A stretch of 64,000 bases of DNA from a bacterium (lineage in GTDB: Bacteria; Chloroflexota; Dormibacteria; Aeolococcales; Bog-877), in contig JAKATL010000001.1 of NCBI GenBank assembly GCA_021827985.1, positions 120,376 through 184,375 on the forward strand, written 5' to 3'. This document shows, one piece after another, positions 29,121 to 31,168 of this stretch. Position numbers and translations under genes: made by a program. Below the pieces are notes generated by a model, which ran no database searches, was not told where the DNA came from, and was given only the letters and a program-made list of their open reading frames with translations. How positions within the stretch are numbered: the stretch's first letter is position 1; every line of letters starts with the position of its first letter.

Positions 29121-30092
29121 CTAACTGGCGCCGGGATACGGCGCCATGGCCTGGAGCAACTCCACGGTTCTCACGGCGCCGTGATAGAGCGCCACGTGAT
29201 AGAGGTCGCTGCCCACGACCCAGCTGGCGGAGCTGTGCAGCCCGTCGGCAGCGATGTCGCAGCGGAAGAGGCCGATGCCTGATGGCAGCGGGTTGGCCTC
29301 GAAATGGGTGGCCACAGAGCGTGCCACCTCCAGCCAGGGCGGGCTAGCGTCCCCCGGCTGGCCCCCCCTCATGTCCCCGTACAAGTCGAACTGCCAGCCC
29401 CGGTCCTGCCACACGGCAGCACAGCCGCTCGGGCTGGCGGGCGAGTAGAAGAGGGTGGCGGTGAGCCCGGGGTCAATCGGCACCGAACGGCTGTCAGCGC
29501 ACCCCTGGGCTGGGGACCATCCAGCCATAAAGGAGGTGCGAGCCGCTGCCTGGCTGGGATAGGCCGAGGCCCCAAAGTTCCCGTAGATCGAGGCCATCGC
29601 TCCACAAGCACCGCTACCCACCGACGGCGAGTTGAGGGGCTGCGGTTGGGGACAGACGAAGAGTTGGGCAAGATACATGCTCTCGCCGGCCCGGACCTCA
29701 GCCGAATTCGGGGGCTGGGGCAGTGCGGGCAGAGCGGCAGGAGCCCAAACCGGGACTGCGGTTCTCCGCTGGGCGTACGACATGATCTCGACCACAAGAC
29801 TGGGCCAGTTGCGCTCCTCAGAGGAGGAGAGGCTGGGAGATGGCTGGGGCGAGGATCCTGCAGCGGCCGGTGCAGTCTGAGTTGGGCAGGTACCCGGTCC
29901 TACCCCCGCACCGGTGGCCGGAGCGCAGCCGGAGCCGCCCTGGGCGGGACCTGGCTTTCCCAGGTGAGCGGACGAGGCGCAGCCGGCCAGAGCCAGCGCA
30001 GCAGCAAGGATGAGCGGGGTCAGCCGGGCCGTCCGGGGACCCGTCTCCCACCTCCGGCAACCAGCCACCGTTCCCCTGAATCCCAACCGCAT
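29121..30092 (-). CDS. Putative secreted lipoprotein, function unknown
   Basis: About 323 residues from the ATG at 30092. Basic residues and a hydrophobic stretch end in LALAGCASS, a lipobox. A Pro/Ser/Gly-rich linker leads into a Cys-containing globular domain (CGAMASIYGNFG, CADSRSVPIDPG, GCAAVWQDRGWQFDLYGD, LFRCDIAADGL) in which pairs of cysteines may form disulfides outside the cell. I do not recognise the family. It converges on the MBL-rhodanese gene and diverges from the small RNA gene. Confidence 0.65.
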   Translation of the reverse strand: MRLGFRGTVAGCRRWETGPRTARLTPLILAAALALAGCASSAHLGKPGPAQGGSGCAPATGAGVGPGTCPTQTAPAAAGSSPQPSPSLSSSEERNWPSLVVEIMSYAQRRTAVPVWAPAALPALPQPPNSAEVRAGESMYLAQLFVCPQPQPLNSPSVGSGACGAMASIYGNFGASAYPSQAAARTSFMAGWSPAQGCADSRSVPIDPGLTATLFYSPASPSGCAAVWQDRGWQFDLYGDMRGGQPGDASPPWLEVARSVATHFEANPLPSGIGLFRCDIAADGLHSSASWVVGSDLYHVALYHGAVRTVELLQAMAPYPGAS

Positions 30093-30366: not shown

Positions 30367-30394
30367 TTGACAGCCGCGCATGACGTGCTATGTT
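30367..30394 (+). promoter_or_regulatory. Sigma-70-type promoter of the small RNA gene
   Basis: TTGACA at 30367-30372, a 16-base spacer, then TATGTT at 30389-30394. Expected start of transcription is about 30400. It is the best consensus promoter I see in this intergenic region and faces the terminator at 30608. Confidence 0.65.
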
Positions 30395-30399
30395 GGAGT

Positions 30400-30638
30400 C
30401 AGGTATCCGGGTTCAGACGGAGGTGTCACGTAGTGCGTACCGTCTGGAGCATGCTGAGGCACACCAGGGCGGAGTGAGCGGCCCCCCGGGGCCATCCCGG
30501 CGGAAGGTTCCGCCGCTTCGCGTTGGGCCCCGGCAGAGGGCGACTCGCCACGTATTTCGTTCCGGCTTATCCGCCGGACGCGGTGCCTACAGCACCGGTG
30601 ACTTATGGGAGCGGGCCATAGTGCCCGCTCCTCTTTTT
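30400..30638 (+). ncRNA. Unassigned structured small RNA, about 240 nt
   Basis: Between a consensus-like promoter and a strong intrinsic terminator lies about 210 bases without a plausible ORF but with several short inverted repeats: AGACGG/CCGTCT (30415/30440), GGCGGAA/TTCCGCC (30499/30508), TCCGGC/GCCGGA (30561/30573) and GGTGC/GCACC (30582/30592). No gene follows on the plus strand, so it is more likely a free-standing RNA than a riboswitch. I could not match it to SRP RNA, tmRNA, RNase P RNA or a T-box by their hallmark motifs. A 6S-like or lineage-specific RNA is possible. Confidence 0.5.
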
Positions 30639-31168
30639 GCCCTCAGCGCGCCCGCGAGGTAGTAGCGCAGGGAGGCAGGGTCCCTCACTCCTATCCGGGG
30701 TCCGGCCTCAACGGGTTGCTCCGGCATACCGGCCTCCAGCCACAGATCTGTGCTCCGGGAACAGAGGTCCAGGCGATTGTCCGCCAGGGTAACCCCGAGG
30801 GCGCGGCAGAGGAGCGCCGGGCCGCCCACCACCTCCCCGGAGGGGCGGCGGCCAGCCCGGAGCAGGACCGCCTGGGCCTCCCCGACGGGGCCGGTCACCA
30901 CGTTGAGGCAGTGATGCATCCCATAGATGAAATAGACGTAGGCGTGACCGGCCGGTCCGTACATGGGCAGGTTTCGGGGGGTGGGTCCGCGGCGGGCATG
31001 CGAGGCCGGGTCCGACTCCCCAAGGTAGGCCTCCACCTCCAAGAGTTCCAGCCTTATGGGGCCTGTCGGACCCCGCCGGACCAGCCAACACCCCACCAGC
31101 TCGCGGGCTACCTCGGGACTGGGGCGGGCGAAGAACTTTCGGCCCAGGCGCGATCCCAGCGGGCTCAC
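30587..31168 (-). CDS. mpg: 3-methyladenine DNA glycosylase (AAG/MPG type)
   Basis: 193 residues. Family motifs: ARELVGCWLVRR, LLEVEAYLGESDPASHARRG (catalytic glutamate in EAYLG), YVYFIYGMHHCLNVV and GEAQAVLLRAGRRP. It removes alkylated purines from DNA. Start overlaps the pheT stop by four bases, so it is the last gene of the thrS-pheT block. The C-terminal tail overlaps the plus-strand terminator of the small RNA. Confidence 0.92.
   Translation of the reverse strand: MSPLGSRLGRKFFARPSPEVARELVGCWLVRRGPTGPIRLELLEVEAYLGESDPASHARRGPTPRNLPMYGPAGHAYVYFIYGMHHCLNVVTGPVGEAQAVLLRAGRRPSGEVVGGPALLCRALGVTLADNRLDLCSRSTDLWLEAGMPEQPVEAGPRIGVRDPASLRYYLAGALRAKRGAGTMARSHKSPVL
30608..30638 (+). terminator. 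Intrinsic terminator
   Basis: Nine-base-pair perfect stem GGAGCGGGC/GCCCGCTCC with a six-base loop, followed by TCTTTTT. The T run is only on the plus-strand side, so it ends the small RNA gene. It lies inside the 3' end of the convergent mpg gene. Confidence 0.85.

Follow-up and report, generated by a model that had tools for sequence, protein, structure and literature searches.

What is encoded by an interval of about 240 bases that carries what appear to be its own promoter and terminator but is followed by no gene? The interval lies in a 64,000-nucleotide stretch of bacterial DNA (the window), and a first-pass annotation had proposed that it is an unassigned small RNA gene, rich in hairpins and without an ORF. 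Comparison with relatives indicates that a free-standing RNA gene almost certainly exists here, with its own promoter and terminator and with covarying homologues across the order. However, because a conserved ORF of 14-15 codons lies inside it, the gene is not purely noncoding.

All elements of the RNA are on the plus strand. The promoter (30367..30394) comprises a TTGACA -35 element (30367-30372), a 16-nucleotide spacer and a TATGTT -10 element (30389-30394) that is preceded by TG. Transcription starting roughly 6-7 nucleotides past the -10 element would yield an RNA of 238 nucleotides (30401..30638), which would end at the intrinsic terminator P5 (30607..30638), a 10-pair stem (30607-30632) followed by CTTTTT. 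Between positions 29800 and 31300, this promoter is the sole sigma-70-like site (0.1 ± 0.3 expected from shuffled sequences), and the stem with its T run is the sole terminator-like site (0.2 ± 0.5 expected), so both elements named by the annotation hold up. Many relatives retain a TTGAC-type -35 and a TAT-type -10 element. The impression of a hairpin-rich interval also was correct: the transcript has a folding energy of -125.7 kcal/mol, versus -104.3 ± 4.8 for dinucleotide shuffles (z = -4.4), and is more stable than all 200 of them. As the annotation had stated, the RNA gene has no plus-strand gene behind it; the neighbours mpg (30587-31168, minus strand) and pheT are convergent with it. The mpg stop codon (30587-30589, minus strand) falls inside the P4 hairpin described below. 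The mpg frame therefore enters the RNA gene, and in the window's genome the RNA's final 52 bases lie antisense to the 3' end of mpg. This overlap is absent or barely present in several relatives.

A search of the whole window against the covariance models of Rfam returned only tRNAs at gathering thresholds, and the transcript matches no family. The annotation had found the hallmarks of SRP RNA, tmRNA, RNase P RNA and T-box to be absent by eye and had left 6S RNA to such a search; the lack of a match at these thresholds excludes all five. A permissive scan of the RNA gave matches that are at chance level or involve only the terminator. Two of these, sX14 (RF02233; cmscan E 0.013, score 24.7 against a gathering threshold of 80) and sot2652 (RF02657; E 0.021, 20.2 against 61), cover only the 3' end of the RNA and chiefly its terminator. 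Elsewhere in the window's genome, outside the window, a 6S-like match occurs on the minus strand (G000 C47:212733-212845) at 39.8 bits, below the cut-off of 46.4, and 15 further genomes of the order have similar sub-threshold hits. This candidate is probably a diverged 6S RNA.

Homologues of the RNA were detected by DNA search in all genomes of the same genus and in most of the family. A sequence profile built from the 5' part of the RNA extends this distribution to 44 of 50 genomes of the order (Ca. Dormiibacterota), of which 43 matches are firm and one is weak (G028, E = 0.0014; by eye, it lacks a normal start codon). Several of the order genomes without a match are incomplete, and the region adjacent to yebC is different in G020, G021 and G032. 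In sister families of the class, the profile gave a handful of hits at E about 0.001-0.007, none of them firm, and a simple pattern found no counterpart in the vicinity of yebC, whose start was unrecognised at three loci. Nothing firm was found outside the order in a phylum sample of 301 genomes, and viral contigs gave no match. A pattern scan of named genomes returned 22 records, 19 of which are metagenome-assembled genomes labelled Candidatus Dormiibacterota, Chloroflexi or bacterium; the other three are isolated matches in unrelated genera. The clade is represented here by metagenome-assembled genomes only, and none of the papers searched treats both Dormibacterota and small RNA.

The annotation had suggested comparing the interval between mpg and the lipoprotein gene in relatives. 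Nearly all copies examined at the main locus have a divergent yebC or tyrS and a convergent mpg as their neighbours; in a few genomes mpg is replaced by a different convergent gene. Flanking genes were called with a simple ORF script and recognisable protein starts, not with curated annotation, and by these calls no same-strand gene directly follows the terminator in main-locus copies with enough flank. For this reason, the RNA is not regarded as the leader of a gene. In genus g13, further copies occur at other loci (G025 and G041), with peptides such as MRTCWQRLRRGRAET. Extra copies in this genus include L126 6529-6606 (minus), L127 6187-6262 (plus) and L128 1454-1535 (minus); two of these are located just 3' of a conserved gene of about 210 amino acids on the same strand (MHEKLDVLAERGFVVLRD...) and have their own promoter-like sequence.

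The claim that the interval holds no ORF was wrong. A micro-ORF (30433..30477) with a GTG start, 14 codons and a TGA stop encodes the peptide MRTVWSMLRHTRAE, lies behind a Shine-Dalgarno sequence GGAGGT (30419..30424) and is kept as protein across the order. In the mechanical ORF list it appears only as the tail of a spurious 41-amino-acid frame that starts upstream of the promoter. GGAGG precedes the micro-ORF in all 43 copies, at 8-15 nucleotides from the start codon in aligned copies. Relatives encode versions such as MRTVWRLLRQTRAE, MRTVWQRLRHGRAEG, MRSVYETLRHTRAER and MRTVFELLRHTRAER, among others, and the consensus is an arginine-rich peptide of 14-15 residues, M-R-T-V-W-Q-x-L-R-H-[T/G]-R-A-E-[G/R]. 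R9 is invariant, R2, R12, A13 and E14 are nearly so, and position 5 is W, Y or F.

The pattern of change in the micro-ORF is that of a coding sequence. A permutation test was run on 42 copies, in which 34 different 13-codon stretches occur; it left out G031 (its peptide, read by eye, is MRSVYELLRHTRAER). Where codons differ, the synonymous fraction of pairs is 0.451, versus 0.194 ± 0.054 when columns are permuted, and the mean BLOSUM score of the peptide is 2.05, versus 0.07 ± 0.42; in neither case did any of 1000 permutations do as well, although the copies are related and so do not represent independent events. Up to 4-7 codons are in use at the arginine positions, and the synonymous changes are specific to the frame (AGA/CGN, AGG/CGA, TTA/CTG). 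The +1 and +2 frames contain stops and score low, and the stop codon of the micro-ORF is TGA, TAG or TAA, depending on the copy. The G033 copy (L037) lacks the usual stop codon, so that its peptide has 20 residues (MRTVWQSLRHGTAEGSRPAR) and runs into the P2 arm. Comparison of the copies shows the predicted micro-ORF to be under selection at the protein level, and it is very probably translated.

The remainder of the RNA comprises a series of hairpins. The P2 arm (30481..30541) pairs GCCC (30481-30484) with GGGC (30538-30541) and continues with CCGGGGCC (30486-30493) pairing with GGCCCCGG (30526-30533), with an inner hairpin between these strands; the arm varies in length among relatives. P3 (30561..30578) is a TCCGGC/GCCGGA stem capped by the hexaloop UUAUCC, and P4 (30581..30597) is a CGGTGC/GCACCG stem. 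When run on automatic alignments, RNAalifold failed to recover most of P2 and, in the order-wide set, P3 as well. The counting was therefore done, in 12 sequences of the window's family, on a structure that had been named by eye from the window sequence. In these sequences, 91.7% of cells are paired, and there are 33 two-sided changes, versus 9.9 ± 2.6 with shuffling and 2-12 with partners slid; since the structure was picked after the alignment had been seen, these two controls are the sole guard on the count. Covariation is seen in P2, P3 and P4, with compensatory changes present in P3, P4 and P5 and weaker in P2. Order-wide, a simple hairpin scan, which mislabelled hairpins in two paralogues, showed that 42 copies contain 30 different stems for P3 and 22 for P4. 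The P3 loop remains UNNUCC-like in most copies of both families, with larger or different loops in a minority. A C-U-N-A/G sequence opening such a loop would be akin to the U-turn motif (YUNR) known from antisense recognition loops. Comparison also shows the predicted RNA body to be under selection for RNA structure.

Other pairings were considered. A possible hairpin P1 (30411..30445; CAGACGG with CCGTCTG) is predicted and would partly hide the Shine-Dalgarno sequence; it is 84.5% paired in the 12 sequences, with no compensatory change. In 40 of 43 copies, the Shine-Dalgarno sequence is predicted to be unpaired with a mean probability below 0.5. Covariation supports neither this nor an alternative fold that a ribosome would open. 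A long-range interaction between the P3 loop (UCCGCC) and the end of the ORF (GGCGGA) was dropped because, by eye, it is lost in genera whose ORF reads GCCGAG. In the minimum-energy fold of the window sequence, the ORF codons CTGAGGCAC pair with P4; the local P4 hairpin is preferred because this pairing, by eye, is not kept where P4 changes.

The ORF and the body are closely spaced. The GCCC that begins P2 starts 0-3 nucleotides past the stop codon in 42 of 43 copies, and at 1 or 3 nucleotides in 41 of 43: the offset is 3 nucleotides with a 14-codon ORF and 1 nucleotide with a 15-codon ORF. Since the families differ by one codon in the position of the stop, GCCC stays 6-7 nucleotides away from codon 14 in nearly all copies. 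A ribosome positioned at a stop codon covers more than this gap between stop and P2. It would therefore cover the 5' strand of P2, and P2 could not close in the meantime.

Because the folded RNA and the peptide are both kept across nearly the whole order, we consider the RNA to be a real, order-specific family, unnamed and absent from Rfam, that is a micropeptide message and a structured RNA at once. A dual-function small RNA is expected to be a discrete transcript with its own promoter and terminator, to contain a translated small ORF and to have a structured part under its own selection. The predicted transcript has the first and last of these properties, and comparative evidence argues for the second. 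On balance, we lean toward a dual-function small RNA whose micro-ORF abuts a structured regulatory part. Both promoter and terminator would be the RNA's own; the message for the arginine-rich peptide would fill the 5' third, and the rest would form a structured body in which P2, beginning at the stop codon, is followed by P3, P4 and the terminator P5. Translation and folding of the body might be coupled by a stop-codon ribosome on the 5' strand of P2, and the exposed P3 loop might act in trans on an RNA, or perhaps on a protein. The peptide might have a role of its own, or might mainly serve to place the ribosome. We suggest only tentatively that the RNA is a stand-alone small RNA gated by the ribosome, such that translation of the 14-15 codons decides whether the regulatory body folds.

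A simpler proposal is that the RNA is a plain micropeptide mRNA in which P2 to P5, as a 3' UTR, serve protection or processing and play no role in trans. In its favour, no other part is as well conserved in sequence between the two families as the ORF, which is clearly selected as protein; this proposal, though unlikely, deserves real weight. Yet the body makes up more than half of the RNA, covariation extends over P2, P3 and P4, and the P3 loop persists while its stem changes, all of which exceeds the needs of a terminator; moreover, P2 stays at a fixed distance from the end of the ORF. The opposite proposal, that the RNA is purely noncoding and that constraint on the RNA itself produces an ORF-like pattern, could draw on the potential of parts of the ORF to pair with the leader in P1. 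It is hard to reconcile with synonymous changes specific to one frame, the exchange of W, Y and F, the use of three stop codons and a Shine-Dalgarno sequence that does not vary, and we consider it quite improbable.

The anatomy of a short ORF, a stop codon beside a hairpin arm and an intrinsic terminator also resembles that of a transcription attenuator, in which a leader peptide and terminator control a downstream gene, whether at present or until recently. However, the main-locus copies with enough flank have no co-directional gene behind the terminator, the ORF has no run of control codons but one aromatic codon and scattered arginine codons, and a conserved alternative partner for the terminator stem was not found. 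An attenuator therefore seems improbable, if slightly less so than a purely noncoding RNA. Least probable, and by our estimate very remote, is a diverged member of a known family. 6S RNA (RF00013) likewise is stand-alone and of similar length, but its fold is different, Rfam finds no match to it here, it has no conserved ORF led by a Shine-Dalgarno sequence, and the order has a separate 6S-like candidate below the cut-off, in the same genome and 15 others.

The dual-function reading has partial precedents. In Sinorhizobium meliloti, rnTrpL is a short terminated RNA that carries an ORF for the 14-residue peptide peTrpL, and both RNA and peptide act in trans; it arises through attenuation upstream of trpE(G) and is leaderless, with a run of Trp codons (PMC7298713). 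This is the closest known arrangement, as the RNA described here also is short, terminated and endowed with an ORF for a 14-residue peptide. Yet rnTrpL is the product of an operon attenuator, whereas the present RNA is its own gene, with a Shine-Dalgarno sequence and extra covarying hairpins and with neither a downstream gene nor a control-codon run. SgrS/SgrT is an independent small RNA gene that combines a small ORF with a regulatory RNA part (PMC4021124). The same is true of SR1/SR1P. Rfam detects no relation of either to the present RNA in sequence or structure, and the ORF here is far shorter and lies directly against the first structural arm.

With this RNA, an uncultured phylum gains a conserved small RNA family that has strong comparative support and is absent from Rfam, together with a family of 14-15-residue peptides below the size reach of gene callers. 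A protein-level signal can hide in an apparently empty 240-nucleotide interval between a promoter and a terminator. Because ORF and fold are both selected and their spacing is fixed, the family offers a clean case in which to ask how a ribosome on a micro-ORF might control the folding of a small RNA. If the gating reading is true, the RNA would represent an attenuator-like sensor that has been uncoupled from any downstream gene, acts in trans and is specific to this order of Dormibacteria.
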